The notes under the pieces were generated by a model. The model was not told where the DNA came from. It was given only the letters and a program-made list of their open reading frames with translations, and made no database searches. This document shows positions 16,132 through 36,618 of a stretch of DNA of 64,000 nt, one piece after another; position 1 is the stretch's first letter; each line of letters opens with the position of its first letter. The DNA comes from Candidatus Poribacteria bacterium (GTDB taxonomy: Bacteria > Poribacteria > WGA-4E > WGA-3G). The stretch covers positions 62,001-126,000 of the forward strand of contig JAJECN010000022.1 of assembly GCA_022821965.1 (NCBI GenBank). Reading direction: 5' to 3'. The translations under genes were made by a program, and so were the position numbers.

Positions 16132-16137
16132 GTGAGA

Positions 16138-17043
16138 ATGACAAGAGAAGAAATTATTGAGAAATTTCAGAATTTGAATATATGGAAGAGCAAAGATCAA
16201 CGGGCAGTGCATAAGCCGTTATTAGTTCTATACGTAATTGGAAAATTGCTGCGTGGTGAAAATAGGCTCATTTCATACGCTGATGTAGAAGACGACCTTC
16301 GGAATTTGCTAAAAGAGTTTGGACCATTGAAACCAAATCACCGCCCTCAGTATCCATTTTGGCGGTTGCGAAATGAAAAAGATAGAATCTGGGAAATACC
16401 TGATGCCCACGGAATTCAGGAATACATACGAAAGGATGGAACTTCAACTGGTGATGCTCGTATAGCAGATTTAAGACGTTACGGTGTAGGTGGTTTTCCT
16501 GAACCTATAGCCTATCAACTTCGGCAACAGCCGCAAATCGCTTTTGAGGTTGTACAGAACCTATTAAATTCCCATTTTCCATTCTCGTATCATAGTGATA
16601 TTTTACAGACAGTCGGGATAGTGCTTCCGTTCCTACAGTTCCAATCTCGGATTCCAGACTTCCGAGAAAATGTCCTAAGAGCCTACAATTATAGCTGCGC
16701 TGTTTGTGGTTTTGATGTGAAGTTACGAAATCAGCCCGTTGCCTTGGAAGCTTCCCACATAAAATGGCACCAAGCAGGCGGCCCTGATACAGAAGTCAAT
16801 GGATTAGCACTCTGTTCCTTACATCATAAACTATTTGACCGTGGGGTTTTTACGTTGTCATCAAAGTTAAAAATCCTCGTTTCAGAATATGCTTATGGAT
16901 CTGTCGGTTTTGACGAATGGCTGATGAAATTTCATAATAAAGAGATTAATTTTCCGCAGAGGCGAGCGTACCATCCTCACGAAGATTTTATAGATTGGCA
17001 TCTCAGAGAAGTATTCAAATGGCCTGAGCGTGAAAAAATTTGA
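16138..17043 (+). CDS. HNH endonuclease of the phosphorothioate-DNA-binding (McrA-like) family
   Basis: A 301-aa type IV-like endonuclease. The N-terminal half (about residues 1-150) matches the sulfur-binding-domain family: RAVHKPLLVLYVIGKL near residue 25 and HRPQYPFWRLRNE near residue 75. In ScoMcrA a Tyr-Pro pair lines the sulfur pocket, and the YPFWRL motif could provide it. The C-terminal HNH is intact: zinc cysteines CAVC, catalytic region LEASHIKWHQ, and NGLALCSLHHKLFDRGVF. Members cut near phosphorothioated sites in foreign DNA. Lying beside a PT-writing locus is unexpected (see findings). GTG 16132 and ATG 16138 are both possible; AAGAAGG lies 10 nt from the ATG, which I chose. It has its own promoter and a 449-bp gap to the operon. 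PT-binding is inferred, not shown. Confidence 0.8.
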   Translation: MTREEIIEKFQNLNIWKSKDQRAVHKPLLVLYVIGKLLRGENRLISYADVEDDLRNLLKEFGPLKPNHRPQYPFWRLRNEKDRIWEIPDAHGIQEYIRKDGTSTGDARIADLRRYGVGGFPEPIAYQLRQQPQIAFEVVQNLLNSHFPFSYHSDILQTVGIVLPFLQFQSRIPDFRENVLRAYNYSCAVCGFDVKLRNQPVALEASHIKWHQAGGPDTEVNGLALCSLHHKLFDRGVFTLSSKLKILVSEYAYGSVGFDEWLMKFHNKEINFPQRRAYHPHEDFIDWHLREVFKWPEREKI

Positions 17044-17492
17044 CATTTAAAACATAATTGTGTTAGAATCTAAGTAAATATTGAATAAACTGGAATTCCT
17101 AATTTCAGTTTAAGATACAATACAACTAAATCTGATATTTTGATACCTAATCAGTAAACGTAATGAAAAATCGAGATATAAAAACTGCTGTCAATACACT
17201 ACATAGAACTGATGACAACTGCCCTGTCCGGCAATTCTTCGCGTCCTTTAGTCCCTTATGTCTATTGGGCTTGAATAACAAGCCGATTTACCCCCCCCCA
17301 CTTTACAAACGATAAGCGTTTTACTATACAAAATATTTACGGCATCTGCCAATGCTCCGCGCCCGCGCGTCATCTTGCTCGATGGCATTCCATGTGGGTT
17401 GTTTTTATTGTCATATTTTCCGCTGTTACTCTCACTTTTTTCCCCCTATTGCTGTCTGCATCAGGAACTGTTCTATTTCGGGAGGACGAGAT
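17044..17492. other. Leader region of the phosphorothioation operon
   Basis: This 449-bp gap is not coding, although the ORF track extends the DUF4007 frame upstream to 17352 through cysteine-rich, unfamiliar sequence. It contains a C9-10 homopolymer near 17291, a promoter (17302-17330) and GGAGG at 17481-17485. Confidence 0.6.
17302..17330 (+). promoter_or_regulatory. Sigma70-type promoter of the PT operon
   Basis: TTTACA, 17-bp spacer, TATACA, about 160 bp upstream of the proposed TTG start at 17493. The match is good but not perfect. Confidence 0.6.
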
Positions 17493-18470
17493 TTGAGTAA
17501 CGCGTACACAATCCCTCTACAGACAATTACGCCATCTTTCTCGGGACACCAGACGTTTCCATTCCGATACACATGGTTAAAGAAGGGTGTTGAAGCCGTG
17601 ATAAAAGATCCGGCAGTCTTTTCATCCGAGAACGCCTCTGTTACGTTAGGGGTCGGAAAAAACATGGTGAGCTCCATCCGCCACTGGTGCCGCGTATCAA
17701 GGCTCATTGAAGAAGGGATAGGTCAACCTAAACAACCTCCCATGGGTCTCGGTGAGCAAGCAACGGTCTTTCGGCGTGGTCAATTCTCGCCAACTGACCT
17801 TGGCAGAGCCATCTTTGACGAAAACGGATTCGACCCATACCTCGATGATCCAGCCACTTTGTGGTTGATTCACTGGCAGATAGCAACCAATACCAATCAG
17901 GCGACTGCGTGGTATTGGGCATTTAACATTTTAAGAGGAAACCAATTCACACCGCCCATATTCGCACGAGAATTGTATAAATGGGCACAACAACAGAAAA
18001 AATCCATGCGGACTGTTTCTGAAAACACACTTCAACGGGATGTCAATTGCTTTATCCGTACTTACTGTCAGGCGCGCCACACCGAGGCCGTCGTTGAGGA
18101 GACGTTTGACTGTCCACTCGTTGAACTCAACCTAATCGCCGAATTACCAGATGGGAATGGATATGAATTCCAACGAGGCAGCAAAGAAACACTGCCAATT
18201 GAAGTCGTTGCGTGGACGTTAGATACTTTTTGGAAAAGCAACTCCCTTCAAAAAAAAACACAAACACTTTCGTTTTCGAATTTGATGTATGACCCATCAA
18301 GTCCCGGGCGGGTTTTCAGATTAGACGAAGACACGATGACGACGTATCTTGAAAATCTTGAGCAACTCACGGACGGTGCGTTGCGATACGATGAAACAAC
18401 AGGGGTAAAGCAGGTTTACCGACACAGAGATTTAAACCAGATGGAACTTTTAAAGAGGTACTATGAATAA
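17493..18470 (+). CDS. DUF4007 protein, SspB-like component of DNA phosphorothioation
   Basis: The 325-aa product has the DUF4007 opening FSGHQTFPFRYTWLKKGVEAV, followed by LGVGKNMVSSIRHW, LSPTDLGRAIF-type, GFDPYLDDPATLWLIHWQI and TAWYWAFN, all family hallmarks. DUF4007 proteins occur in PT operons; from memory SspB, the DNA nickase of the SspABCD single-strand PT system, has this domain. The listed ORF starts at 17352, but a TTG at 17493 lies 7 nt after a perfect GGAGG and gives a sensible N-terminus, so I moved the start. The end overlaps the next gene by 8 bp, indicating coupling. The probable role is nicking or positioning on DNA before sulfur insertion. Confidence 0.82.
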   Translation: MSNAYTIPLQTITPSFSGHQTFPFRYTWLKKGVEAVIKDPAVFSSENASVTLGVGKNMVSSIRHWCRVSRLIEEGIGQPKQPPMGLGEQATVFRRGQFSPTDLGRAIFDENGFDPYLDDPATLWLIHWQIATNTNQATAWYWAFNILRGNQFTPPIFARELYKWAQQQKKSMRTVSENTLQRDVNCFIRTYCQARHTEAVVEETFDCPLVELNLIAELPDGNGYEFQRGSKETLPIEVVAWTLDTFWKSNSLQKKTQTLSFSNLMYDPSSPGRVFRLDEDTMTTYLENLEQLTDGALRYDETTGVKQVYRHRDLNQMELLKRYYE

Positions 18471-21400
18471 CGTCCCCTTATCAGATATTTTTCACATCAC
18501 AGAACGTTTTCAGCGTTCTGTACATCTGGAGCGCGATTTTTATACCGAAAACGCGTTAGATGGGTACGTTGTGACTGTCAAAGCGCGGGAAACCCTCACC
18601 CGTCTTATTTCAGCACAAGAGAATAGTGCAACCTCGAAAGCATGGTCCCTCACTGGTCCTTATGGATCAGGAAAATCAGCGTTCGCGCTCTTTGCTGCAA
18701 AACTACTCGGAGATACCAACACACCTACAACACAACAGGCTTTAAATCTATTGAGACGTGAAGACATCGCATTATACGAACGATTTATGCACATAAAGGG
18801 GAATGGAGATTACTCGCTATCCGGTTTTTGTCCGGTGCTTATTTCAGGAGAGCGCGCCCCGCTTCCAATCGCCCTTCTGCGTGCTTTAGAACAGGGTCTT
18901 AAGACCTTCGGAATCCCATCTTCCAGTTCACTGCGGCGGAACATCAAAAAATTACTGAAAACAGAGACAGTCTATAGAACGCCATCAGCATCTGAAATCA
19001 CGGCACTTTTTGAATCGGCGACGCGCGTGATTCGTAAAAACGGCGGCACCGGTCTGTTGTTAGTTATTGACGAACTCGGTAAGTTCCTTGAATATGCCGC
19101 GCAATCTCCAGCACAAGGCGATGTGTTTGTGCTACAAACCCTCGCTGAATTTGCCACACGCAGCGATCAGACCCCGCTATTTCTGTTGACAATTCTGCAT
19201 CAGGCTTTTGAACAATACGCACACCGAGTCGCAAAATCACAGCGCGAGGAGTGGGCAAAGGTACAAGGACGGTTTGAAGATATTGCCTTCGTGGAACCCT
19301 CTGAACAGGTACTCCGCCTGATTGGATCCGCTATCAAAAGGACTTCAAAAGGTAAGGAAAGCAATTTATCACTGCCCATTGAATTCAATCTCAAACCGAC
19401 GCAACTTGCCGACGAAAGCTTTAGCGAACTCCTAAGAAACTGTCTACCGCTCCACCCGACCGTAGCACTTGTTATCGGTTCAATTTTCCGACGGTTCGCA
19501 CAGAATGAACGTTCTCTTTTCGCTTTCCTGAGTTCAAATGAACCTTATGGACTACAAGACTTTCTTTCAAACCGGCACTATGATAGTGGTGTGCTGCCGA
19601 TGTTTTCGGTCGCCGATCTGTACGATTATCTCAACACCACTATAGGGAATCGACTATCTGCCGCACGCGACGGTGATAAGTGGGTAGAAATTGAGATGGC
19701 TATTAATCGGTTGGCAGATCCATCACCGACCACAGTGAGACTCATTAAGACTATCGGATTACTCAGTATCGTCGGAGAAGTAAGCACTAACCTGAAAGCC
19801 TCAAAACATATACTCCGTTATGCCTTAGACGATCACACCGAAGAATTCGCGAAGGAATTTGAGACAGCACTAAAGACGTTAGAAAGACGTTCAATTGTTA
19901 CTTATCGTCGCTACAACGATGTTTACGCACTGTGGGAAGGGAGCGACATTGATATCGAAGCGATGTCTCACGAAGCGGAAGGACACCTCGATCCAAATGA
20001 GACACTTACGAATTACCTTTCAAAACTCACACCGCCGCGACCTCTTATTGCCCGCCGGCACCTGTTTGAGAAAGGCACACTTCGCTATTTTGACGTTCGG
20101 TACACCGATCTTGAAAATTTTGATGCGAACCTGAATAAATCCTGTAGTGAAGCAGACGGACTTGTGCTTTATGTACTTCCAGCAAGTGAAGATGAAGTCA
20201 GTCAGTTCATCGAAAAAGCAAGTGGAAAAGACGTTACAGAACGCCAAAATGTGTTAATTGCAATCCCACACTCCACCCGTTTTCTCCGCGATGCTGTCAC
20301 TGAACTCGCCTGTCTGCACTGGATTTCGGAAAATACGGCCGAACTTGAGGGCGATGCGGTTGCGAGACGTGAACTTTCAATCCGGTGGGTAGAAGCGGAG
20401 CGAAATGTATCCGATCAGTTAGCAGTCGTTTTTGGCAGCGACAGCGAGGAGTCTTGCAAATGGTTTCACAAGGGACAACGGGTAGGTATCAACTCTCAAC
20501 GTGCGAGAAATGAACACTTGTCAAAAATCTGTGATGAGGTTTACCACAAAACCCCTTTTATTCGGAATGAACTGATCAATCGGCGGAAAATCTCTGGTGC
20601 TGTAACGACTGCCCGAAAAAAATTAATTCAAGCGATGCTTGAAAACGGTGATCAGGAAAACCTCGGTATTACTGGTTATCCTGCTGAAATGAGCATCTAC
20701 CGCTCACTCTTATCGGATACAGGAATCCATCGTGAAGTTTCCGGTATGTGGGGATTCCACCCACCAAAAACGGACGATAAAAACGAAATAAAACACACAT
20801 GGAACGCAATTGAGGCTTTTCTTGAAGCGTGTGAAGGTGAGCGACAACCTGTCGTGAAACTCTATGAACGTTTGATGGCACCACCGCTTGGGGTGCGAAG
20901 CGGTCCTCTGCCTATTCTTTTGTGCGCGATGATGCACCATTACAAAACAGAAATCGCGCTTTATGAAAACGGATCCTTTATAGCAGATTGGTCAATGCCG
21001 GTTTTTGAAAGACTTCTGAAAGCACCGCAACAATTTGAACTGAAACGTTTTCAGATGACAGGAATCCGCTCCGATCTATTTTCACAATTTTCAAGGGCGT
21101 TCAATCAATCAACAGAAACCCAAAAACCAGATCTGCTGACGGTCGTCACGCCGCTTATGCGTGCTATTGCGCAACTTCCGAAGTATACTTTGGTAACACA
21201 AGAATTGAGTGACAATGCGAAAAATTTTCGTAAAACCGTCTTGAATGCGCGTGAGCCTGACGAACTCCTCTTTACACAACTGCCGGCAGCATTTGGATTT
21301 CCTGTTTTTAGTACGCAGATAACAACAGATTCACAAGCAGTTTCGGAATTTTTTAGTGCACTGCAAAGCGCATTGTCGGAATTAGAAAAGGTTTATGACC

Positions 21401-21951
21401 GCCTACTGAATTCGGTTGAACTTCTGTTGATCGAAGCATTCACCTTGACACCAACTGCGGAGAAACTCCGTGCTGAACTGGTGGCAAGAGCCGAACCTTT
21501 GTTATCGGTGACAATTGAAATTGATCTCAAAGGATTTTTAGTCCAAGTCTGTAGTGGTGGACACGATCACACGGGTTGGCTTGAGGCAATCGCGACCTAC
21601 CTCGCCAAAAAACCACCCTCAGCATGGGTAGATGCCGATAAAGCCCAGTTTGAGATTAACCTTTCTCAGATCGCGAGGAAGTTTCGGCACTTTGAAGCGG
21701 TGTCCTATGAAAAACTGGCGCGCACTGAATCATCAACAGGCGAGCCGATCCGAGTGGGTATCACCGCCCCGAATCGAACAGAACAGGAACGGGTTGTTAC
21801 CTTGACACCGACTGCTGATGAGCAAACCGCTGAAATGGAAGATGAGATTAGGAAAGTATTCTACAAGTTTGACGTAGACGATAATCCAGAACTCCATATC
21901 GCAATTTTGGCGCGAATTTCACAAAAATGGATGCAACAACTTGATGAATAG
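18463..21951 (+). CDS. Large P-loop ATPase, SspC-like (BrxC-like style)
   Basis: The protein is 1162 aa. Walker A GPYGSGKS lies at residues 65-72 and Walker B LLLVIDELGKFLEY at about 197-210, followed by a sensor-like stretch FLLTILHQAFEQYA and an Arg-rich winged segment. The remaining about 800 residues are helical with no recognised catalytic motif. Size, ATPase core and position directly between the DUF4007 and PP-loop genes match SspC, the ATPase of the SspABCD system. Related giant ATPases occur in BREX and other defence loci. It starts inside the end of the DUF4007 gene (8-bp overlap) and is followed 12 nt later by the PP-loop gene, so the three are translated together. The assignment to SspC rests on order and architecture. 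Confidence 0.75.
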   Translation: MNNVPLSDIFHITERFQRSVHLERDFYTENALDGYVVTVKARETLTRLISAQENSATSKAWSLTGPYGSGKSAFALFAAKLLGDTNTPTTQQALNLLRREDIALYERFMHIKGNGDYSLSGFCPVLISGERAPLPIALLRALEQGLKTFGIPSSSSLRRNIKKLLKTETVYRTPSASEITALFESATRVIRKNGGTGLLLVIDELGKFLEYAAQSPAQGDVFVLQTLAEFATRSDQTPLFLLTILHQAFEQYAHRVAKSQREEWAKVQGRFEDIAFVEPSEQVLRLIGSAIKRTSKGKESNLSLPIEFNLKPTQLADESFSELLRNCLPLHPTVALVIGSIFRRFAQNERSLFAFLSSNEPYGLQDFLSNRHYDSGVLPMFSVADLYDYLNTTIGNRLSAARDGDKWVEIEMAINRLADPSPTTVRLIKTIGLLSIVGEVSTNLKASKHILRYALDDHTEEFAKEFETALKTLERRSIVTYRRYNDVYALWEGSDIDIEAMSHEAEGHLDPNETLTNYLSKLTPPRPLIARRHLFEKGTLRYFDVRYTDLENFDANLNKSCSEADGLVLYVLPASEDEVSQFIEKASGKDVTERQNVLIAIPHSTRFLRDAVTELACLHWISENTAELEGDAVARRELSIRWVEAERNVSDQLAVVFGSDSEESCKWFHKGQRVGINSQRARNEHLSKICDEVYHKTPFIRNELINRRKISGAVTTARKKLIQAMLENGDQENLGITGYPAEMSIYRSLLSDTGIHREVSGMWGFHPPKTDDKNEIKHTWNAIEAFLEACEGERQPVVKLYERLMAPPLGVRSGPLPILLCAMMHHYKTEIALYENGSFIADWSMPVFERLLKAPQQFELKRFQMTGIRSDLFSQFSRAFNQSTETQKPDLLTVVTPLMRAIAQLPKYTLVTQELSDNAKNFRKTVLNAREPDELLFTQLPAAFGFPVFSTQITTDSQAVSEFFSALQSALSELEKVYDRLLNSVELLLIEAFTLTPTAEKLRAELVARAEPLLSVTIEIDLKGFLVQVCSGGHDHTGWLEAIATYLAKKPPSAWVDADKAQFEINLSQIARKFRHFEAVSYEKLARTESSTGEPIRVGITAPNRTEQERVVTLTPTADEQTAEMEDEIRKVFYKFDVDDNPELHIAILARISQKWMQQLDE

Positions 21952-21963
21952 AGAGGGAAAAAC

Positions 21964-22800
21964 ATGGAACAAAAAATCCGCCACGTCCTTGGACTCTCCG
22001 GTGGTAAAGATAGTTCTGCACTCGCTGTTTATATGCGGGATAGAGTACCGGAGATGGAATACTTTTTTTCTGATACAGGCAAAGAATTGCAGGAGACTTA
22101 CGATTTTTTAGATCGGTTAGAGGCGTTTCTCGGCAAACCGATTGTACGCCTCAACATGAACGCCGATGCCAACAGTAACCGAGATTTCGATCATTGGCTG
22201 ACAGTCTACGGTGGTTTGCTGCCGTCATCGCAAATTCGCTGGTGCACCGTTAACCTCAAAATAAGACCTTTTGAGGAATACATCGGTGAGGATAACGCGT
22301 ATCACTATATTGCTATCCGTGCCGACGAAGATCGTATCGGTTACAAGCCTCCGAGTATCTCCTCTCTCCATAATATTGAACCCAAATACCCATTCAAAGA
22401 GGACGGCATTACGAAAGAGGACGTGTACCGAATATTGGAGGAAAGTGGACTCGGTTTGCCCGATTATTATAAGTGGCGGACGCGTTCCGGTTGCTATTTC
22501 TGCTTCTTCCAGCGTAAATCCGAGTGGGTTGGACTGTTAGAGCAACACCCAGACCTTTTTGAACTCGCCAAGGGTTATGAGAAATTCAATCCAGAGACAG
22601 GCGAACGGTTCACGTGGTGTCAGGGCGAAAGTTTGGAGGAACTATCACAACCAGATCGGATCGCGGAGATCAAGGCAAATACTGAAAAGGCGATGGCATC
22701 TAAGAAAGCGGCAAAACCGAATCGTCGTTTGATAGAGATTCTCACTGATGTTCTTGATGATGAGGACGACGAGGAGCCATGTCTGCCTTGCCATAAGTGA
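21964..22800 (+). CDS. PP-loop PAPS-reductase-like sulfur-insertion protein (SspD/DndC-like)
   Basis: A 278-aa ATP pyrophosphatase-family enzyme that would adenylate the DNA backbone for sulfur transfer. The PP-loop SGGKDSSAL lies at residues 11-19, FFSDTGKELQETYDFLD follows, then SSQIRWCTVNLKIRPFEEY and SGCYFCFFQRKSEW. The cysteines at RWCT and GCYFC are candidate iron-sulfur ligands as in DndC. It is shorter than classical DndC, nearer to SspD. An additional CLPC pair ends the protein after an acidic DDEDDEE tract. AGAGGG precedes the ATG. Its place after the DUF4007 and ATPase genes reproduces the B-C-D order. A housekeeping sulfate assimilation role is unlikely in this context. Confidence 0.85.
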   Translation: MEQKIRHVLGLSGGKDSSALAVYMRDRVPEMEYFFSDTGKELQETYDFLDRLEAFLGKPIVRLNMNADANSNRDFDHWLTVYGGLLPSSQIRWCTVNLKIRPFEEYIGEDNAYHYIAIRADEDRIGYKPPSISSLHNIEPKYPFKEDGITKEDVYRILEESGLGLPDYYKWRTRSGCYFCFFQRKSEWVGLLEQHPDLFELAKGYEKFNPETGERFTWCQGESLEELSQPDRIAEIKANTEKAMASKKAAKPNRRLIEILTDVLDDEDDEEPCLPCHK

Positions 22801-22842
22801 CAGAAATAAACCCATTATGTTTGAAAGGGAACAGATAATAGA

Positions 22843-24966
22843 ATGAGACTTCGGACAATACCTGATATTCAACCGCTCTATATATTGCCAAAGGACCCTG
22901 TGACGAAAGATGTCCTGATTCCGTGCTTTCAGTCTGCGACCTCTGTTGATTGCATGATGGGTTTCTTTTCAAGTGAAATTCTGGTATCACTCGCGCCAGG
23001 TTTGGCAAGTTTTATAGACTGCTCGGACGAAAGTTTACGTCTTATTATCAGTCCACTTCTGAGAACCGAAGATAGGGAAGCAATCGAACTGGGTACGACC
23101 TCCGTTGAAGATATCGCTCGTGAGTCTTTAGAGGATTTTATTGTTACAGAAAACGCCATTGCACAACATACACTAAAGTGTCTCTCGTGGATGCTACGTC
23201 ACGGACGCGTGGAAATCAAAATTGCTTTGATGAAAGATGCTCTTTTCCACCCGAAAGTCTGGCTCTTTCGCGAAGGCAATGACGTAATAGCAGCACACGG
23301 ATCCAGTAATATGACGTACGCCGGTATTGAAAAAAATATTGAGCAAGTGTCTATATCCAAATCGTGGGAGGATACCAATCAGTCCTATATAACAGAAAAG
23401 TTTTGCGATCAGTTTAGGCAACTTTGGACAAATTACGATGAGACTTGTACTGTCATACCGATACCACGAGCGATTGAGGAAAATCTGTTGAAAACTTATA
23501 ATTCAGATATCCCACCAACCGAGGCAGAATTGCACACACTCTACGAAGAGCAAACTGGTTCTATAGATGAATCTTCGGCATCCTATAACTATGATAAGCT
23601 ATCTCGCCCTCCATTTGCCATACCCTCATACCTGCGGTATGAGGACGGTCCTTTTGAACATCAAGGTAAGGCAATTAAAGCGTGGTGTGAAGCTGGTTAT
23701 CATGGCATTTTAGAAATGGCGACTGGTTCTGGGAAGACAATTACCGCCATGATTTGCGCCCATAGGCTTTATAATGTAGAAAAACCACTCCTTATTGTCG
23801 TGGCTGCGCCTTATATTCCTCTTATTCAACAGTGGTGTGATGAGATTTTATCCTTTAGACTCAAGGCAGTTAACCTAACCGAAGCGAACGGAGCAAAGGG
23901 ACGTGCCCTTGAACTTAACAAGCTCAAACGAAGACTCCGAAACGGCAGCAGTGACGTTGAAGTAGTTGTAGTTACGCACCGCACACTTTGTAATAGTGGT
24001 TTTAAAACTGAACTTGAGAAATATGACTGTAAAACTTTGCTTATCGCGGATGAAGTACACAATCTCGGAAGTGAGGGATTCATAACCGATCCGCCCGATT
24101 TCTTTGATTACAGATTGGGACTATCAGCAACCCCTATCCGCCAGTATGATGAAGTGGGAACAGAGCAGCTATTTTCGTTTTTTGGTCCTATTGTTTTCCA
24201 GTTCACCCTTGAGGAAGCGATCGGGCGATGTCTCGTTGAGTACGAATACTACGTCCATCCGGTAGAACTTACAGAGGATGAAATGGAGAAATGGTACGAG
24301 CTCACGGAAAGGATCGGGAAAAATGCGTGGCGACAGGAAGAAGATCCAAACGATGAGTACCTTATGAAGCTGCTCCGGGATAGACGTGCTCTCTTGGAAA
24401 ATGCTGAAAATAAGATCGCTGTGTTAGAAAATGTTTTGACACAACGCGAAGACTTCGACAGACTCTGCCATACGTTGATTTACACGTCTGACAAGGCACC
24501 GCAGCAGCTGAAAGATGTTAACGCCTTACTGAACAAACACGGTGTTCTCTTCCACCAACTCACACATGAAGAGACACCCGACCGGAAAAAAACCGCCCAA
24601 ATTATCCAGTCTTTTCAGGAAGGAACATTACGCATTTTAACTGCCAAACGCGTTCTTGATGAAGGGATCAATATTCCACAGATTGAAAAGGCTTTTATTC
24701 TTGCGAGTACCACAGTGGAACGTCAATGGGTGCAACGTCGTGGACGGTTGCTCCGCACTTGTAGCAAGACAGGCAAAACACACAGTGAAATCCACGACTT
24801 CATGGCTTTACCGCCGGATTTGGATAATCTGGACACTCGCGCTCGCGCCTTAATAGAGTCCGAACTCAAACGGATCCAAGCATTCGCTTACCTTGCGAAA
24901 AACTTTGGCAGACCTGATGGTCCTTTGAGTCACATCGACCAACTTGTTAAAGCCCTTTACACATAA
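22843..24966 (+). CDS. PLD-like / DEVH superfamily 2 helicase, PT-system restriction component (SspF-like?)
   Basis: The product is 707 aa. An N-terminal phospholipase-D-like region has HPKVWLF and GSSNMTYAG (about residues 130-158), a single HKD-like half. The SF2 helicase core has Walker A MATGSGKTITAM (about 287-298), DEVH box LLIADEVHNLGS, motif III LSATPIRQYDE and motif VI QRRGRLLRT. This domain order is that of proteins annotated as DNA phosphorothioation system restriction enzymes (COG1061-like). The likely role is translocating on or cutting unmodified invader DNA. It sits 42 nt after the sspD-like gene and 11 nt before the 81-aa gene. Whether it equals SspF of the SspFGH module should be decided by sequence comparison. 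Confidence 0.8.
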   Translation: MRLRTIPDIQPLYILPKDPVTKDVLIPCFQSATSVDCMMGFFSSEILVSLAPGLASFIDCSDESLRLIISPLLRTEDREAIELGTTSVEDIARESLEDFIVTENAIAQHTLKCLSWMLRHGRVEIKIALMKDALFHPKVWLFREGNDVIAAHGSSNMTYAGIEKNIEQVSISKSWEDTNQSYITEKFCDQFRQLWTNYDETCTVIPIPRAIEENLLKTYNSDIPPTEAELHTLYEEQTGSIDESSASYNYDKLSRPPFAIPSYLRYEDGPFEHQGKAIKAWCEAGYHGILEMATGSGKTITAMICAHRLYNVEKPLLIVVAAPYIPLIQQWCDEILSFRLKAVNLTEANGAKGRALELNKLKRRLRNGSSDVEVVVVTHRTLCNSGFKTELEKYDCKTLLIADEVHNLGSEGFITDPPDFFDYRLGLSATPIRQYDEVGTEQLFSFFGPIVFQFTLEEAIGRCLVEYEYYVHPVELTEDEMEKWYELTERIGKNAWRQEEDPNDEYLMKLLRDRRALLENAENKIAVLENVLTQREDFDRLCHTLIYTSDKAPQQLKDVNALLNKHGVLFHQLTHEETPDRKKTAQIIQSFQEGTLRILTAKRVLDEGINIPQIEKAFILASTTVERQWVQRRGRLLRTCSKTGKTHSEIHDFMALPPDLDNLDTRARALIESELKRIQAFAYLAKNFGRPDGPLSHIDQLVKALYT

Positions 24967-24977
24967 CGGAGGATACT

Positions 24978-25223
24978 ATGTCGTATAACAAGCAAAAAAT
25001 GGTGGAACTGATCCTCAATGAATCTGAATCTATTGAGGAGAGATGCGATGGTTACAGGAAAAAAATTCTTGACGCAATCATTGAAATCCTTAACGCGGAA
25101 AGAGATCATAAAGCGCAAAGGACAAGTATCCAAAAACAAGTAAATCAAGCATGCCATAAGGCTGGTGACTTTCTCGCGAGGAAACACGATATAGATAATC
25201 CAACGACAGAGGTTATCCAATGA
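24978..25223 (+). CDS. Small helical protein, SspG-position
   Basis: An 81-aa protein rich in charged residues, predicted to be mostly alpha-helical: KQKMVELILNESESIEERC followed by IIEILNAERDHKAQR. I do not recognise the family. ACGGAGG precedes its ATG, and its last codons overlap the start of the DndD-like gene (ATGA, 4 bp). It is thus translationally coupled and probably a partner of that SMC-like ATPase. It occupies the middle slot between helicase and SMC ATPase, where SspG would lie if this is an SspFGH-type module. Function unknown. Confidence 0.7.
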   Translation: MSYNKQKMVELILNESESIEERCDGYRKKILDAIIEILNAERDHKAQRTSIQKQVNQACHKAGDFLARKHDIDNPTTEVIQ

Positions 25224-27337
25224 AACTAATCAGTGCAAAATTTCAGAACTTTCGTCTGCTACGAGATTTAAGATTGGATTTTTCGACAAGTAACGATAAA
25301 AAACTAACCGTCATTCGCGCCTCAAACGAGAGCGGAAAAACGACTATCTTAACAGCACTTCAGTGGGCACTCTACGGCGACAACGCCCTGCCTAACAGAG
25401 GTAGGGGACATCGCCTATTTCCAATTGATTGGGATGTCCCTGATGGACGGGCAATTCCGATATCTGTGCAAGTCGATTTTGAAAAACCTGCATCAGAGTT
25501 AAATCGGAATCAGACGAGCCGCTACTGTCTCATTCGTTCCGTAGAGGAGACAACCGAGGGGCTCAGACAAAACTCAAAAGTAGAATTGTTTGAACTGACA
25601 GAAACCGGGAGTGCTCCGATTCCTCCACCACTAGAAGCACAGATATCCCGACTCCTGTTACCTCTTCATTTGCGTGAGGTGTTTTTCACCGACGGCGACC
25701 GAGCACTGAGTTTCATCGAATCAGAAAACAATAATACACAGGTTAAAAATGCTATTCAATCGTTGTTAGGTCTTGACGTGATTGAGTCTGCACTCGATCA
25801 CTTGAAAAAGACGCTCGCTGGACTCAATAGAGATTCAAAGAATATCGGATCCGATACAGAAATCACCGCAATCGTTACAGAATTAGAGGAGATAGATCAA
25901 AAGATTGAACGTCTTGAAAATGAAAGAGACGATGCGAAACTCCAATTTGATGCAGTCAATCAAAGTCTAACAGAAATTGATAAAGACCTTGAAGTAGCAT
26001 TGGTTAATGGGGATCAAGAAGAACTTAATCGTGAACTGCAAAAAGCAGAGGCAGAACTAAAGAGAATCAGAAATCAAGAAGAAAAACTGGTTTCCGAGCA
26101 TTCACAACTCTTTAGAAAACCGCCTCTGTTCCGTGATTTGCTTGCCCCGGTTTTGAAAAAAAGTTTTGAGAAATTGGATAAACTCCGCGATCAAGGGAAA
26201 CTGCCGAGAACAACAATTCCGGTGCTTGCCGAACGGTTAACAGATGTTACCTGCATCTGTGGCGAATCGCTGGATCGACACTCAGAAGACGGGAAGCGTC
26301 GCAGAGCACATATTGAACAACTGATTAGTGAGAGTCAGAAATCTGATGAATTCCAAAAATGTCTCACCGACCTCTATTACGGTTCATTGGCACTGAAACC
26401 GATAGAGACCAACGATGCGCAACACTGGATCGCTGAGTACAAGAGAAACGCAATCCGTCGAGATGAACTTGAAACGCGACGCGGGGAATTAGAGAAAGCC
26501 TTAGCAGCACTTGAAGTCCAACTTGAAAACATAGGAGACATTGACATTCAAGAACTTCGTGCCGCCAAACAAGACTATATCGCTCAACGCGATTCTTTGA
26601 ACCACATCCGTATAGAGCACGAAAGAGAACTTGAACGTCTGAAGGAAAGGCAGAGGTCCTTAAGCGCAACGCGTAATAACCTTATCAGTAAACGGAGGAG
26701 AGGGAAAGGAATATTAGCCAGATTAGACACCACACGCGACATAGATCAAATTCTTAAAAATTCCTACAACCGAATCACAAACGAGGAATTGCAAAAAGTG
26801 AGTCGGTTGATGAACACTCTCTTTTTAGAGATGATTGGTGCGGATGCCGAACAGAACGCAATCATTCATAAAGCGGAAATCAGTGACAAGTTTGATATTC
26901 TCGTCTACGGACCCAATGAACGTGCTTTGAATCCTGATCGAGATTTAAACGGTGCCTCTCGGCGAGCATTAACGATAGCGTTTATTCTCGCTCTGACTAA
27001 GGTAAGTGAAGTTGCAGCACCAAATGTGATTGACACACCCCTTGGAATGATGGACGGGTTCGTCAAACGTTCCGTTCTCAAAACTGCTATTCAAGAAAGT
27101 TCACAACTCATTCTCTTTTTAACGCGTTCTGAAATTAAAGACTGTGAGGATATTATATCAGATAAGGCGGGACGTATAATCACCATCACTAATTCAGCAC
27201 ACTATCCCAATATATTGGTGAACGATCCACATATAAACGAACCTCAGGCACTCCGATGTCCGTGCCAGGGCCTCGGAGAATGCGATATGTGTAAGCGGCG
27301 AACGGACGCTGAGGTGGAAGTCCAACCGGCACCTTAG
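25220..27337 (+). CDS. DndD-like SMC/RecN-type ATPase (SspH-position)
   Basis: This 705-aa SMC-family ATPase resembles DndD. The N-terminal lobe MKLISAKFQNFRLLRDL is followed by Walker A ASNESGKTTIL (about 36-46). Long coiled coils at about 210-290 and 420-500 flank a hook-like region with CICGESL (about 350). The C-terminal lobe has NGASRRALTIAFILAL (signature) and VIDTPLGMMDGFVKR (Walker B/D-loop), as in DndD's DTPL motif. It ends with an unusual cysteine cluster, CPCQGLGECDMCKRR. DndD supplies ATPase activity in dnd modification, and similar proteins also appear in restriction modules. Start overlap with the 81-aa gene implies coupled expression. Confidence 0.85.
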   Translation: MKLISAKFQNFRLLRDLRLDFSTSNDKKLTVIRASNESGKTTILTALQWALYGDNALPNRGRGHRLFPIDWDVPDGRAIPISVQVDFEKPASELNRNQTSRYCLIRSVEETTEGLRQNSKVELFELTETGSAPIPPPLEAQISRLLLPLHLREVFFTDGDRALSFIESENNNTQVKNAIQSLLGLDVIESALDHLKKTLAGLNRDSKNIGSDTEITAIVTELEEIDQKIERLENERDDAKLQFDAVNQSLTEIDKDLEVALVNGDQEELNRELQKAEAELKRIRNQEEKLVSEHSQLFRKPPLFRDLLAPVLKKSFEKLDKLRDQGKLPRTTIPVLAERLTDVTCICGESLDRHSEDGKRRRAHIEQLISESQKSDEFQKCLTDLYYGSLALKPIETNDAQHWIAEYKRNAIRRDELETRRGELEKALAALEVQLENIGDIDIQELRAAKQDYIAQRDSLNHIRIEHERELERLKERQRSLSATRNNLISKRRRGKGILARLDTTRDIDQILKNSYNRITNEELQKVSRLMNTLFLEMIGADAEQNAIIHKAEISDKFDILVYGPNERALNPDRDLNGASRRALTIAFILALTKVSEVAAPNVIDTPLGMMDGFVKRSVLKTAIQESSQLILFLTRSEIKDCEDIISDKAGRIITITNSAHYPNILVNDPHINEPQALRCPCQGLGECDMCKRRTDAEVEVQPAP

Positions 27338-27346
27338 GAGATTGAT

Positions 27347-27850
27347 ATGGCACCACAATACGACAACCCTTTCCGCAACATGACGATTATTTCACCCAGG
27401 ACGCAGCAAGAAAACTACGATCACTACTGCCAAACAGGACAGGGCGCGAAAGCCGATAACACTCCGTTTCCACGGAAGGTGGATCTTTGGTTTGCGGGCC
27501 TCTCACTGGCAGTGCGGAAGAATCTTAAACCGATGGATTTAAAGAAAGAGGAAACCGTTAGTATCATTAACGGTGATATTTTTAACACTGATGGTTGGCA
27601 GGCACAAGCGATAATGCTGATAGCGATAGCAGTTGAGGGAAACTTAGAGGCTGTCCTAAATCCACGTCGTATGATGGATATTGCCAACGGTTTAGCGGCT
27701 GCCGGTGTCAATGACATCATAAAAATGCTAAGCGAAGGACCTGAAAAAGCGATATGGAATCTGTCTGAAGCCTTTGAAGGCGTATTGCAATCTGATACTG
27801 GTACAGGGGAACAATCGGACCAGGATCGACTCGCTGAAGCCCTGCTATGA
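27347..27850 (+). CDS. Conserved PT-locus protein of unknown function (DndE position)
   Basis: The product is a 167-aa cytoplasmic protein with a hydrophilic start (NPFRNMTIISPRTQQENY) and a probable helical core, FPRKVDLWFAGLSLAVRKNLKP, then GWQAQAIMLIAIAVEGNLEAVL and IANGLAAAGVNDIIKML. I do not recognise the family and it does not look like the canonical DndE sequence. It follows the DndD-like gene by 9 nt, the usual place for dndE after dndD, so an analogous DNA-nick-binding or structural role is possible but unproven. GGAGATTGAT precedes the ATG. The C-terminus is acidic and polar (TGTGEQSDQDR). Confidence 0.65.
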   Translation: MAPQYDNPFRNMTIISPRTQQENYDHYCQTGQGAKADNTPFPRKVDLWFAGLSLAVRKNLKPMDLKKEETVSIINGDIFNTDGWQAQAIMLIAIAVEGNLEAVLNPRRMMDIANGLAAAGVNDIIKMLSEGPEKAIWNLSEAFEGVLQSDTGTGEQSDQDRLAEALL

Positions 27851-27860
27851 TTCTATAACC

Positions 27861-27890
27861 TTACAGAAATTGCCCAAACTTCAGTATAAT
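27861..27890 (+). promoter_or_regulatory. Possible internal promoter in the PT locus
   Basis: A consensus TATAAT at 27885 lies in the 57-bp gap, with a weak TTACAG 18 bp upstream. GAGGTG at about 27894 precedes the ATG at 27908. It could drive the last three genes separately. Confidence 0.45.
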
Positions 27891-27907
27891 TTAGAGGTGT
27901 ATGAACT

Positions 27908-28198
27908 ATGCCGAAAGAGTTACCACCATCTTTAAAAGTAGGTACCGGATGGATAGAATTGGAAATCATCTCCGAACCGGATGTAGTTTTAACATTCAAA
28001 GGTTACGCGCCTATACTTCACGTTCAAAAAATTAGCAATAACCTTGAGTATATCTTCTACATATCAGCATCCTCTTTAGGACGTTCTCTTGAAGAGCTAC
28101 GCGAAAAGAATGAAGGTGTTTTCCAAGGCATTCAGTTTCGCGTCCGTAAAAAGGAGTCCGCTAAAACCGCCCCTTACGAGGTTGAAGCGATAGAATGA
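27908..28198 (+). CDS. Small beta-rich protein of unknown function in the PT locus
   Basis: A 96-aa protein with alternating hydrophobic residues suggesting a small beta barrel: GWIELEIISEPDVVLTFKGYAP, NNLEYIFYISA, then one helix LGRSLEELREKNEG and the strand FQGIQFRVRKK. I do not recognise it. The length and pattern could fit an OB-like or accessory DNA-binding fold, but there is no motif to prove this. Its end overlaps the next start (ATGA, 4 bp), so it is coupled to the 455-aa protein. AGAGGTG lies upstream of the ATG, and a TATAAT box precedes it. Confidence 0.65.
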   Translation: MPKELPPSLKVGTGWIELEIISEPDVVLTFKGYAPILHVQKISNNLEYIFYISASSLGRSLEELREKNEGVFQGIQFRVRKKESAKTAPYEVEAIE

Positions 28199-29562
28199 CC
28201 CAGTTAAATTTACAACACACTTGCTCCGAAATTTTTACATACCTGGGTGTTAGCCCAAATCCATTGCGGATAGCGGAACTAATCAATCGCGTCCAACCGA
28301 GTTGCTGGACTTTTAGATTCACATTCAATGGTACCGGGCGAACAATAGTACAAATCGACTGCGATCACGCCATCTCCGACACTGATACCCTTACGTTAAT
28401 TGATGGATCATTGAAAGAAGTTTTCTTTGCTGATTCTCTTTCTTTGCATCAAACAGAAAAATTCTTCACAGTCAATATCTGTGAACTCTTCAAAAACCTC
28501 CCATCTTCAAACCAGATTACACTCCGTAATAATCTATCTAAGGGCACGGATTCCCTTTTGACACTAAAGGGATTTGGGAGATCTCACACTACGCCAAAAG
28601 AGTTACAAAAAATTTCCACTGTTTCTTCTTATTTTTTGGAAAATACCTGGCTCGGGGCTCCAGATTTCGCGGACTCAGCGTATTACATTCGTTGGATGGT
28701 ATTTGCGGAAGAATATGTAATCCGACCTCAGAATCGGTATATAAATAAATTGGGATCCACAGATTACTTCACTACGCAAACAAATCTGTACAACACACAT
28801 GGAATTCACATCGGTCATGCCAGTTTTTATACCGCCCCATCGCTTACAAATAATGAACTGTACACTATGTTCGGTCCAGTTCATCCACGAAAGGAAGATT
28901 GGCTGATTAGAAAGAATAAAGACCCATACTGGATTGTAGAAATTGGTTCGGAAACATTAAAACGGACTACAATTTGTGGAGGACATACACGCAAATTAAT
29001 TGATGAATTAGTTGATTCTGTTGAAAATGCACGACTTTCAATCACAGAATCAAATTTGTATCAAAACTATAAAGAAAAGATGCAATGGGAACAACAAACC
29101 GAATCGTCGCGAAATCTGAAAGTAAGGCAAGAGCGGGCGCGGGTGGGCAATAGAGTGCTTTTTAAAGGTAAACCGTTGATGCTTGTTCCTTCAAACGAAA
29201 ACGAAGTGCTTGTCTTGCTTGCTAAATTAGAGGCACTTAACGCCCTTCCTTTTCATGAATTCCTCTTATGGGAATATACACCGCGCGCTGGCATAGATGC
29301 AATAGCCTCCTACCAAATAAGGGAAGTTGATGCACAATCCATGTTTGTACCGATTGAATTAGAATATCACTTTGAGAATTTTAATGATCACGGACATCCT
29401 TATCATCAAGTTAATCTTGTAACTTGCTGGGATTTCCGCAATAACGAAACCACTGCAAAATTGCATAAACACAATGAATGGTTATATGAATACCGAGACG
29501 ACGCATCTGTCTTTATCGTTGTACTATCTCGTATCCCCAACCTTCAAATTGAGGACAATTAA
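28195..29562 (+). CDS. Unrecognised PT-locus protein with a possible degenerate PD-(D/E)XK domain
   Basis: The 455-aa protein has an N-terminal 280 residues of mixed alpha/beta with no known motif (CWTFRFTFNGTGRTIVQIDCDHAI; WLGAPDFADSAYYIRWMVFAEEY). A charged helix follows at about 290-320 (YKEKMQWEQQTESSRNLKVRQE). The C-terminus (about 335-450) resembles a restriction-endonuclease-like core: a helix ENEVLVLLAKLEAL, the strand RAGIDAIASY with Asp near 368, PIELEYHF with Glu near 388 and 390, and HPYHQVNLVTCWDF. The usual Lys of E-x-K is replaced by Glu, so activity is doubtful. It is coupled to the 96-aa gene upstream (4-bp overlap) and sits 3 nt before the DGQHR gene. The fold call is inference. 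Confidence 0.6.
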   Translation: MTQLNLQHTCSEIFTYLGVSPNPLRIAELINRVQPSCWTFRFTFNGTGRTIVQIDCDHAISDTDTLTLIDGSLKEVFFADSLSLHQTEKFFTVNICELFKNLPSSNQITLRNNLSKGTDSLLTLKGFGRSHTTPKELQKISTVSSYFLENTWLGAPDFADSAYYIRWMVFAEEYVIRPQNRYINKLGSTDYFTTQTNLYNTHGIHIGHASFYTAPSLTNNELYTMFGPVHPRKEDWLIRKNKDPYWIVEIGSETLKRTTICGGHTRKLIDELVDSVENARLSITESNLYQNYKEKMQWEQQTESSRNLKVRQERARVGNRVLFKGKPLMLVPSNENEVLVLLAKLEALNALPFHEFLLWEYTPRAGIDAIASYQIREVDAQSMFVPIELEYHFENFNDHGHPYHQVNLVTCWDFRNNETTAKLHKHNEWLYEYRDDASVFIVVLSRIPNLQIEDN

Positions 29563-29565
29563 TCA

Positions 29566-30645
29566 ATGAGTAATAAAATTGGCGAAATTGCCGGAGTCGT
29601 TCAGAAAACTCAAGCGAATCAGAAGTACTTATTTGGGACAATTCCCTCTGACAAGGTTAAAAACGTGACCTTTGTTCCAGTAAACGAATCCAGTTCCCGT
29701 AAGACCCCTCTTAATGAACAGACAGAAGAGGGTTACCAACGCCCTGGCTCGTTGTCACGTATGAGAGCCTTCGCTAGGTTCCTCAAAGATCATCCTAACA
29801 GCATTATACCACCAATCCTCCTCTCTGGACGCGGCAATTGGCATTTCAAACCAAATGGGGAAAGACAAGAGGTAGGAAAACTTATCATTCAAGAGAAAGC
29901 CGCCATTCTTGATGGTCAACACCGTCTTGGCGGCTTTGTGCACTTATATGAATCTGAAGATGATGTACGTGAAATCTCCTTCATTCTTCTTCCTGATCTG
30001 GATCCTGAAGAAGAAAAGAAGGAATTTCTCGTCGTTAACAATACGCAAAAAGGTGTCCCTAAATCGTTAACTATATACCTGGAGGATACGGAAGAAGCAC
30101 AAGTTGCGTGGGGGCTCAATGAAGAGGCAGACAGTCCTTTTAATGGGAAAATTACAAAAACGACATTACAACGCTCACAACTTTTTAATCTTGCCAGCGT
30201 AGCAAAACAAGTTAAACGCTTGTTTGCTATTGGCGGCGTTCAAGACTTAGATGTTGGACAGAAGATTGATTTTATGTCCCGGTTTTGGACAATAATTGCT
30301 GACCATCTTCATGAAGAATGGACAGATATTGAAAAACTTGATGATCCTGAAATAAAAGGCAGTCGCAGAAACTCTTTTGAGTACAAACTCCTTGAGCTCA
30401 CCGGACTTATAGCTTGGGCACACACTGGTGCCCACATTTTTTCCCGTAGTTACAGCGAGGAAACGGGTATGAATTGGGATAATGTCAGCCGCCTAGTAGA
30501 AGCAGCATCTGAAATAAATTGGCGTAAAAATGGTGACTACGCAGGTATGACTGGTGAGTATGGCGGCAAAATTATGGCAGACGATATGATTCGTTTATTA
30601 CCACCCGAAAGTGCTGAAACAGGTTTACATCAGGCTCTGAGTTGA
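29566..30645 (+). CDS. DGQHR-domain protein, DndB-like
   Basis: A 359-aa DndB/DGQHR-family protein. The hallmark DGQHR is at about residues 115-119 (KAAILDGQHRLGGF). It is preceded by the ParB-like segment RPGSLSRMRAFARFLKDHPNSIIPP and followed by ISFILLPDLDPEEEKKEFLVVNNTQKGVPKSL, all typical. DndB is a DNA-binding regulator that limits dnd expression and modification level. DGQHR proteins also occur in other defence islands. Its position last, 3 nt after the 455-aa gene and directly before a hairpin terminator, fits a regulatory or auxiliary role. Its separation from sspBCD by seven genes is unlike classical dndBCDE order. Confidence 0.82.
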   Translation: MSNKIGEIAGVVQKTQANQKYLFGTIPSDKVKNVTFVPVNESSSRKTPLNEQTEEGYQRPGSLSRMRAFARFLKDHPNSIIPPILLSGRGNWHFKPNGERQEVGKLIIQEKAAILDGQHRLGGFVHLYESEDDVREISFILLPDLDPEEEKKEFLVVNNTQKGVPKSLTIYLEDTEEAQVAWGLNEEADSPFNGKITKTTLQRSQLFNLASVAKQVKRLFAIGGVQDLDVGQKIDFMSRFWTIIADHLHEEWTDIEKLDDPEIKGSRRNSFEYKLLELTGLIAWAHTGAHIFSRSYSEETGMNWDNVSRLVEAASEINWRKNGDYAGMTGEYGGKIMADDMIRLLPPESAETGLHQALS

Positions 30646-30681: not shown

Positions 30682-30720
30682 ATACCACCGTCCCTGACTT
30701 GGGGAACGGTGGTATTTTTA
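30682..30720 (+). terminator. Rho-independent terminator closing the PT operon
   Basis: ATACCACCGTCCC and GGGGAACGGTGGTAT form a long stem (one bulged base) around a short TGACTT loop, followed by TTTTTA. It lies 37 bp after the DndB-like stop codon. Confidence 0.85.
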
Positions 30721-31469: not shown

Positions 31470-32648
31470 TTGACTATGAGAGATCAACGCACGCTTTTTG
31501 ATCTGACACAAGATGGTCTGATCATCGGTGAAAAGATTCAGCGCATCTATCCTGAATTCGATGTGTCTGCCTTTGTTGCGGATGTCCGGACGGAGATGGA
31601 GGGGCAGACGATCTATAACGTGACGAATGCTATCGGTCGCGTCCTGCGCCAGTATCTGCCACAGGATTATTCCGATGCGCTTGCTATCTTGATGGATTTC
31701 GTTGAAATGGAGGCTCCACCGGAACCGGCTCGACATCCCACTGCCGAAACTGAGACGAGTCTGAGACCGATTGCCCATTTTATCAGTCTCTACGGGTTAG
31801 CGGATTTTGACGCATCTCTGGACGCTTTTTGTGAACTCTCTAAACATCGGTGTACGCGTGGTGGGGAAATTCGGGAGTTTATTATCAAGGACACGGAGCG
31901 GTGTTTTGAACGTTTTGGTGAATGGGTTAGGAACGAAAATGCAAATCTCCGTCTGTTTGTAGCTGCATCGCTCTGCATGCGTGGGACATGGCAGAAATGG
32001 CTGCGTCCGTTTATTGAGAACCCACAACCGATTCTAGCACTTCTGGAGACACTCAAAGATGATCCGGATGGACGTGTCCGGGAGCAGGTCGCTACAGATA
32101 TGCGTGATATTGTTAAGGAGTATCCAGAGGCGGGGTATGCTACGTTGGAGCGGTGGGGGCAGGACGGTAAACCGGAAACGCAGAAAATTCTCAAGCAGGC
32201 ACTCAAGTATCAGGTGAAGATTGGCGACGAACGCGCCTTTAAACTCCTCGGTCTGGGCGCGGTGCCGAAGTTAGGTAAGGCAGACATCACGTTGACCGAG
32301 CTGCAATCTGAACGTCTGGCACTTTCCATCAACGACGTTTTCCGTTTTTCATTCAGTTTACAGAGTGAATCCGATGCGGATCAGACGATCCTGAACTATT
32401 ACGTTGTCGCTTACAAACGTCCATCAGGACACATCACGCGCAAACGCTACCGCCTCAGTCAACGGACGTTGAAACCGAGACAGCGTGTCGCGTACGAAAA
32501 GTCTTTGTTTCCATTGCCGTCACTCAAGCAGTACGATGACGGTAAGGCGTGTCTTGGGTGGCACCGTTTTGAGTTGGAGATAAACGGCAATGTGCTTGGC
32601 GGTTTTGACTTTGAAGTGACCGCGCCGAAAGATCGGAAAACCTTTTGA
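31470..32648 (+). CDS. AlkD-like DNA alkylation repair protein (HEAT repeats)
   Basis: A 392-aa protein. Residues about 30-265 form tandem ARM/HEAT-like helical pairs as in AlkC/AlkD glycosylases, which excise N3/N7-alkylpurines. Examples are YNVTNAIGRVLRQYLPQDYSDALAILMDF, RPIAHFISLYG, WVRNENANLRLFVAASLC and LLETLKDDPDGRVREQVATDMRDI. The C-terminal 120 residues are a beta-sandwich extension (LSINDVFRFSFSLQSE, NYYVVAYKRPSG, RQRVAYEKSL, GWHRFELEINGN), as in longer AlkD/AlkC relatives. The TTG at 31470 is 9 nt from AAAGGA; the ATG at 31476 is also possible. It has a strong own promoter and lies next to the defence locus, but there is no sign of shared regulation. Confidence 0.82.
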   Translation: MTMRDQRTLFDLTQDGLIIGEKIQRIYPEFDVSAFVADVRTEMEGQTIYNVTNAIGRVLRQYLPQDYSDALAILMDFVEMEAPPEPARHPTAETETSLRPIAHFISLYGLADFDASLDAFCELSKHRCTRGGEIREFIIKDTERCFERFGEWVRNENANLRLFVAASLCMRGTWQKWLRPFIENPQPILALLETLKDDPDGRVREQVATDMRDIVKEYPEAGYATLERWGQDGKPETQKILKQALKYQVKIGDERAFKLLGLGAVPKLGKADITLTELQSERLALSINDVFRFSFSLQSESDADQTILNYYVVAYKRPSGHITRKRYRLSQRTLKPRQRVAYEKSLFPLPSLKQYDDGKACLGWHRFELEINGNVLGGFDFEVTAPKDRKTF

Positions 32649-32985
32649 ACTGGCTGCTATAAACATGCCGTCGCTATGCGACTGAAGAGGTTTTGAAGTC
32701 TTTGAGGTTTCCGTGTAAAATCCGGTGCGGTTGGGAAACCGCACCTACCGGGCCTGGGGATCCGGTGCGGTTGGGAATGCAGGTCGCAACCCCCTTTATC
32801 CCCCTTATCCCCCTTCCCAGTAACGGGTGGGGACCCCGGGGGTAGGTGAGTACACCGCAAAACCGAACCTACCTGGCTTAGACATTACTAAAGAGGCGAG
32901 GTTAAAAACCTCGCCAGCAGGGGTAGAAGCTTTAGAACAAAAGCCCCCCGTAACTAAATCTATCATCGGGATATGGGACACAAAG
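32649..32985. repeat. Composite dispersed-repeat block
   Basis: The gap consists of repeat modules: TTGAGGTTTCCGTGTAAAAT, CCGGTGCGGTT-gggA-AACCGCACC, a G/C-rich run (CCCCCTTTATCCCCCTTATC), GTACACCGCAAAACCGAACC and the hairpin GGCGAGGTTAAAAACCTCGCC (32895-32915). The same modules recur at 37400-37665 and 47555-47700. The ORF track wrongly extends the HAD gene through it. Confidence 0.75.
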
Positions 32986-33726: not shown

Positions 33727-33771
33727 ATCGTATGTTGACGGTTGATTGCCATAACGAAAGGAGTCGCACAC

Positions 33772-34506: not shown

Positions 34507-34704
34507 AGAAATCCAGTGAGGTTACATGAAGGTTAATAATTTAATCGGGTAATCTCTGAACGTGCGATAAATCGCACTACTACGAACAGCCCCGTTTGTA
34601 GTAGGGAGACCATTATTTTCACTAAATCGCACCATTATCTGTAGAACCTCTTTTCTGACAGCCGATTGCTGATGGCTGAAAGCCAAGTGAAAGGATTATT
34701 TACT
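34507..34704. other. Gap between the duplicated PhyH genes
   Basis: It contains the inverted words GTGCGATAAATCGCACTACTACGAACAGCC and ATTTTCACTAAATCGCACC plus CTGACAGCCGATTGCTGATGGCTG satellite sequence. No gene is present. Confidence 0.5.
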
Positions 34705-35436: not shown

Positions 35437-35438
35437 AC

Positions 35439-36605: not shown

Positions 36606-36618
36606 GACGTAGGTTGAA

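Follow-up and report, generated by a model that had tools for sequence, protein, structure and literature searches.

A poribacterial operon predicted to join an Ssp phosphorothioation writer to a PbeABCD-type restriction module

Which defence system is encoded where genes for DNA phosphorothioation (PT) of the Ssp type are followed by genes reminiscent of Dnd, the other sulfur-marking system? This question is raised by positions 16,138 to 30,645 of a 64,000-nucleotide stretch, hereafter the window (assembly GCA_022821965.1, contig JAJECN010000022.1, positions 62,001 to 126,000), from the 5.69-Mb draft genome of a member of Poribacteria, a sponge symbiont. The initial annotation proposed sspBCD followed by an SspFGH-type restriction trio and Dnd elements, and thus a hybrid of both modification systems. 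Our results make it probable, as judged from the sequences, that the locus is a PT restriction-modification operon whose SspBCD writer drives a PbeABCD-type module from an Ssp-dedicated branch of Pbe. PbeABCD has until now been described with Dnd.

Gene identities in the operon

All ten genes of the initial annotation were found on the + strand between 17493 and 30645, with the sizes that it gave:

17493..18470, + strand: sspB (DUF4007), 325 aa, TTG start; PF13182 1.4e-89, PADLOC SspB, PDB 6juf
18463..21951, + strand: sspC, P-loop ATPase, 1162 aa; PADLOC SspC 1126 bits (E 0), Walker A GPYGSGKS, Walker B LLVIDE
21964..22800, + strand: sspD, PP-loop sulfurtransferase, 278 aa; PADLOC SspD 1.1e-114, motif SGGKDS
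22843..24966, + strand: pbeA, single HKD (PLD) nuclease domain and SF2 helicase, 707 aa; PADLOC PbeA 4.4e-200, tree
24978..25223, + strand: pbeB-like small protein, 81 aa, between pbeA and pbeC
25220..27337, + strand: pbeC, CxC-type ABC ATPase, 705 aa; PADLOC PbeC 1.6e-54, motifs
27347..27850, + strand: pbeD, 167 aa; hhalign 94.8%, E 5e-8 to Dnd-linked PbeD / 'DNA phosphorothioation-associated protein 4'
27908..28198, + strand: p96, small protein, 96 aa; in Poribacteria only among the searches made
28195..29562, + strand: p455, 455-aa orphan, an optional insert between p96 and dgqhr
29566..30645, + strand: dgqhr (DndB/ParB-Srx family), 359 aa; TIGR03187 1.2e-36, PF14072 1.5e-21 (above cut-off)

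The DUF4007, PP-loop, PLD plus helicase, SMC/DndD-like ATPase and DGQHR domains that had been named all gave hidden Markov model (HMM) matches far above chance. By these matches the first three genes are unambiguously assigned to SspB, SspC and SspD, in the order that had been proposed. SspB reached 5.7e-98 with its PADLOC model, 300 bits with DUF4007 and 1.4e-33 with the SspB of structure 6juf. Its TTG start at 17493 is preceded by GGGAGGA, and the longest open reading frame (ORF) begins at 17352. The PP-loop enzyme scored 381 bits with the SspD model and 19 bits with the housekeeping CysH model PRK02090 (cut-off 154), confirming that it is not a housekeeping CysH. A gene for a cysteine desulfurase (SspA/IscS) was absent from the operon, and 13 matches to Aminotran_5, informative at the family level only, were found elsewhere in the genome. 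No SspE (a DUF262-DUF1524 protein) was found at the locus; DUF262 proteins were present on other contigs of the genome.

Genes four to seven are assigned by their sequences to PbeA, PbeB, PbeC and PbeD, and they match the published description of CxC/Pbe systems, which comprises an HKD-SF2 helicase, a small protein, a CxC ATPase and PbeD (PMC10853773). The supposed SspFGH trio turned out to be PbeA (4e-200), a PbeB-like protein and PbeC (1.6e-54). SspF is a Walker-A protein and SspH has an FtsK/SpoIIIE-like C-terminus (PMC8092258); library searches found neither an SspF nor an SspH with such a C-terminus among the operon ORFs. The motifs of PbeA are intact (HPK...GSSN, GSGKT and DEVH), and PbeC possesses Walker A SNESGKTT, a CIC (CxC zinc hook) at 345 and Walker B PNVIDTP. 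What had been called a DndD-like SMC ATPase does contain an SMC/DndD-like domain, but it is PbeC and not DndD, with 131.7 bits against the DndD equivalog model, whose cut-off is 245.9. The PbeB-like protein was 35% identical to the product of the same-position gene of plasmid CP099618.1; it matched no library model and is named from its position. Among the operon genes no DndC, DndD or DndE was found, nor was a DndC found anywhere else in the genome, and the proposed mixture of Dnd and Ssp modification genes was not borne out. The founding example of PbeABCD has an adjacent Dnd writer, whereas here the writer is Ssp. The proposal that PbeD is a DndE relative (Rakesh 2024) found no support in our profile comparisons (0.4% and 2.3%, from shallow alignments). 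Domain searches of the operon proteins detected neither PglZ nor BrxL, so the operon is not BREX type 4.

The 359-aa protein is, by its motifs (DGQHR at 116, FxxxN at 154), a member of the DndB family. Its matches were limited to PF14072 and the general DGQHR domain, and the DndB equivalog (TIGR03233) gave none, so that the earlier label 'DndB-like' holds for the family but not for DndB proper. DndB-family proteins occurred at 11 of the 19 poribacterial sspBCD loci, alongside varied nucleases; therefore, such a 'Dnd element' beside sspBCD is a local rule in Poribacteria rather than a peculiarity of the window locus.

The gene of p96 was found in 8 of 85 poribacterial genomes and lies beside sspD in 7, i.e., wherever the contig allows it, while p455 was found in only two genomes, that of the window and G020. 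Our homologue searches outside Poribacteria covered plasmids, phages, viral contigs and one genome-contig scan. In these and in Pfam and PDB no relative of p455 or p96 was found outside Poribacteria, p96 having been included in part of the searches, plasmids among them. AlphaFold models made from two sequences for the p455 and p96 work had pLDDT values of 33 (p455) and 43, too low for use. A comparison of p455 with the HATPase cargo of other loci showed that they are unrelated.

The intergenic gaps from sspB to dgqhr range from -8 to 57 bp and Shine-Dalgarno-like sequences are found upstream of the genes; therefore, a single transcription unit is likely. Two candidate signals were noted at its ends:

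17040..17069, + strand: promoter-like TTGACA-18-TAGAAT upstream of sspB, a consensus match only (11/12), among the two best in the region
30682..30715, listed on the - strand: terminator-like 13-pair inverted repeat directly past the operon, from a pattern scan

The number of terminator-like sites overall was not above chance in this pattern scan. Rfam gave no match.

Recurrence and exchange of restriction modules

Full-length PbeA with 70–85% identity was found in seven further poribacterial genomes (eight with that of the window). Six of those seven had sspD on the same contig, with pbeA directly after it in five and 2.7 kb apart in G030; in G049 the Pbe/sspD locus was split over contigs. 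The same order was also found on the Sphingomonadaceae plasmid CP099618.1 (sspA-B-C-D-pbeA-B-C-D), and a Rhizobium plasmid carried sspABCD facing pbeBCDA, which is another order. A poribacterial PbeA of 37% identity was found beside dndCDE at every locus with a long enough contig. In a tree of 25 PbeA, nine sequences of the window class, eight from Poribacteria and one from Sphingomonadaceae, formed a 100/100 clade, and six Dnd-type PbeA of Poribacteria formed another. The Rhizobium PbeA stood apart on a long branch; thus, the pairing of Ssp with Pbe may have arisen once or twice. At the Dnd-linked loci (L097-L102 and L104), Poribacteria carry a second lineage of PbeABCD, which is convergent with dndCDE. 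On a Chlorohelix plasmid (L113, 7572-13497), pbeA is broken by an IS4 transposase and pbeC is truncated, and an SBD-HNH-like gene and dnd genes adjoin.

The ten-gene order, supposed to be uncatalogued, was indeed not found in open-access papers, but two other poribacterial genomes carry a shorter version that lacks the 455-aa gene. The p96 and DGQHR genes follow pbeD in G062 and G066. In G081 and in G030 (whose contig ends soon after) p96 alone does so, and in G057 the p96 and DGQHR pair lies at a contig end.

In the genus of the window, the operon has conserved flanks, with a 575-aa gene, MutY and FGE upstream and ~244-aa paralogues, a 388-aa and a 243-aa gene downstream; the flanks differ in other genera. 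Cargo at other poribacterial sspBCD loci comprised GIY-YIG with one or two DndB-like proteins, DUF262-HNH, PIN, HATPases or a prokaryotic Argonaute. In G014 one protein has a DGQQR motif that by eye is SspE-like, and a DndB-like protein and p96 accompany it. In G020, p96, p455 and DGQHR lie ahead of sspB and sspC, and Pbe is absent. SspC of G066, which has Pbe, was nearly identical to that of G071, which has DUF262-HNH, GIY-YIG and a DndB-like protein, and supported branches of the SspC tree force at least five cargo changes. Given that the cargo does not track the SspC tree, restriction modules are swapped beneath a stable sspBCD writer.

Several further arrangements were observed. The ~244-aa paralogues (window positions 31470-37350) vary in copy number and are kept across the genus. 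In G020, which is of the same order as the host, sspD is flanked by a ThsB-like TIR gene, GIY-YIG and a 717-aa DGQHR-domain protein (L010, 8573-17331). On a Chlorohelix plasmid (L015, 7417-11990), a sensor histidine kinase and a 714-aa protein lie between sspC and sspD, and an sspFGH-like trio follows.

Proposed mechanism and alternative explanations

The biochemistry that we infer for the operon, including what the accessory proteins do and the polarity of PT sensing, is as follows. An IscS-type desulfurase encoded elsewhere would supply sulfur to SspD, which would activate it; SspB would nick and SspC would move along the DNA, and the PT mark would be placed on self DNA. Nicking by SspB and the SspC ATPase install single-strand PT in characterized systems (PMC8092258). 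A mark such as C-PS-CA would be expected of an Ssp writer. PbeC, with PbeD and PbeB, would scan DNA, and on DNA without the mark PbeA would translocate while its HKD domain damages the DNA or stalls replication. Pbe blocks the replication of unmarked DNA (PMC6459918), and cleavage by HKD is a proposal of Rakesh et al. (PMC10853773). The DGQHR protein would most probably set or sense the PT level, similar to its ParB-fold relatives (DndB and the N-termini of SspE and DndI), and p96 may be a writer accessory.

An SspBCD writer serving PbeABCD is supported by the HMM identities, intact catalytic motifs, short gaps, recurrence and PbeA clade, as well as by the desulfurase-family genes elsewhere, the lack of DndC in the genome and the independent-looking sspABCD/pbeBCDA pair of Rhizobium. 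Several points weigh against it. The PT mark is a prediction from the genes, and PbeB is named from where its gene lies and from a weak similarity. The cargo is swapped even where sspBC is nearly identical, so the writer and Pbe are not necessarily obligate partners. The published PbeABCD relied on Dnd-made PT and the published partners of Ssp are SspE and SspFGH. Finally, the genome is a draft of 62 contigs.

Of the alternatives, the one that survives best, possible although doubtful, holds that p96-p455-DGQHR is a second stand-alone effector independent of Pbe, in which a ParB/Srx-fold DGQHR sensor NTPase would act with a p455 nuclease, like an SspE/DndI device split over separate genes and added to the Ssp writer. 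The G020 locus is consistent with this, since the trio there accompanies sspBCD without Pbe, beside GIY-YIG and a larger DGQHR protein, and so are the frequency of DndB-family proteins at poribacterial sspBCD loci and the relationship of the DUF262 of SspE/GmrS to DGQHR (PMC4619093). The C-terminus of p455 (GID...ELEY...CWD) also resembles, by eye, a PD-(D/E)XK layout. However, p96 and DGQHR occur at two loci without p455, and the nuclease nature of p455 is putative, given its lack of a Pfam or PDB match and the pLDDT of 33.

It is improbable that sspBCD, Pbe and the remaining genes are chance neighbours in a defence island, i.e., independent systems sharing a site and a strand. Interchangeable cargo at one site and the mixing of Pbe and non-Pbe loci in the SspC tree would agree with this, but the overlapping genes and gaps of 9–57 bp, an alphaproteobacterial plasmid with an identical gene order and the Ssp-specific PbeA clade speak against it. 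Although SspBCD is true, PbeC resembles DndD and a DndB-family protein is present, an SspFGH trio with Dnd elements is very improbable and is refuted by the family assignments, in which the PbeA and PbeC models clearly win, and the FtsK-type sspFGH-like trio beside sspD on a plasmid looks quite different.

The phosphorothioate reader and comparison with known systems

The interval starts at the ATG of an eleventh gene, unmentioned in the initial annotation, whose ORF lies 449 bp upstream of the sspB start:

16132..17043 (ATG 16138), + strand: SBD-HNH phosphorothioated-DNA-binding restriction endonuclease (PTDR), 303 aa; NF045808 317 bits, cut-off 180

Its N-terminus aligns with the sulfur-binding domain (SBD) structures of SprMcrA/ScoMcrA (7cc9, 5zmo) and its HNH domain is PF13391. 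In the sulfur pocket H27, K28, Y74 and P75 align to H116, R117, Y164 and P165, and R78 replaces A168. The protein is predicted to be a PT-reader endonuclease that cuts sulfur-marked DNA. SBD-HNH genes were found in 35 poribacterial genomes, in 28 of which they lie <8 kb from sspD (15 at ≤100 bp and 13 at 2.4–5.3 kb, mostly upstream of sspB). The co-occurrence with sspD had a Fisher p of 2e-4, uncorrected for kinship. Among the matches listed for plasmids, no linkage of SBD-HNH with sspD was found. According to Lutz et al. (PMC7461809), SBD-HNH enzymes should shun PT writers, and <3.6% lie near dnd.

The pairing of this reader with a PT writer in Poribacteria is unexplained. Either the enzyme recognizes a sequence context unlike that of the Ssp mark, or it is inactive, or the mark is read as self. 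The idea of a weapon against Dnd-marked DNA is weakened, as SBD-HNH is also carried by 6 of the 9 genomes with dnd-type Pbe; because in six genomes SBD-HNH and sspD coexist with a dnd-type pbe locus, plain cutting of Dnd-marked DNA is less likely. It is conceivable, though rather unlikely, that in Poribacteria SBD-HNH works together with the Ssp writer, with PT as a self signal and SspBCD plus SBD-HNH as a minimal PT defence into which Pbe or other modules are plugged. SBD-HNH would then dock on, or be held by, marked DNA and cut unmarked or abnormally marked DNA. The regular pairing makes the avoidance of self-damage by PT readers directly testable. In two stretches (L092, 5313-7121; L093, 12782-14520) sspD adjoins SBD-HNH and no sspB or sspC was found in the stretch examined, possibly representing an orphan sulfurtransferase/reader pair. 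At L095 (7028-9028), a prokaryotic Argonaute lies immediately 3' of sspD and SBD-HNH.

Both the writer and the restriction module are known; what is new is that Ssp is paired with Pbe, in a conserved synteny and with a separate clade. Wang et al. (2021; PMC8092258) reported that 2,211 of 2,678 sspBCD loci lack SspE and SspFGH and proposed other restriction partners. PbeABCD would be one such partner, with an order conserved across phyla and its own PbeA clade, and Poribacteria show several more candidates beside the same writer. The pair is unnamed in the open-access texts covered. A survey from 2020 pools dnd and ssp with pbe, and supplementary tables and subscription papers lie outside this coverage; thus, an unnamed instance in some table is possible.

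Similar to the SspABCD-SspE and SspABCD-SspFGH systems of Vibrio, E. coli and Streptomyces, the locus encodes the same three writer proteins, the desulfurase coming from elsewhere in the absence of sspA. Different from them, restriction is assigned to PbeABCD, and a DGQHR protein and an SBD-HNH gene are added. The DndCDEA-PbeABCD system of Haloterrigena jeotgali, one of the CxC ABC-ATPase systems, has the same four-gene module in the A-B-C-D order, whose PbeA and PbeC motifs are intact here; however, the writer here is Ssp instead of Dnd and PbeA falls into a separate clade. The 359-aa protein shares the DGQHR and FxxxN motifs with DndB/DGQHR proteins (TIGR03187, TIGR04172) and exceeds the PF14072 cut-off, but it is below that of the Dnd-specific DGQHR equivalog and is linked to Ssp. 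Finally, the reader has the sulfur-binding domain, with pocket residues H, K, Y and P, and the HNH domain of PT-dependent endonucleases such as SprMcrA and EcoWI (NF045808), but it is encoded next to a PT writer.

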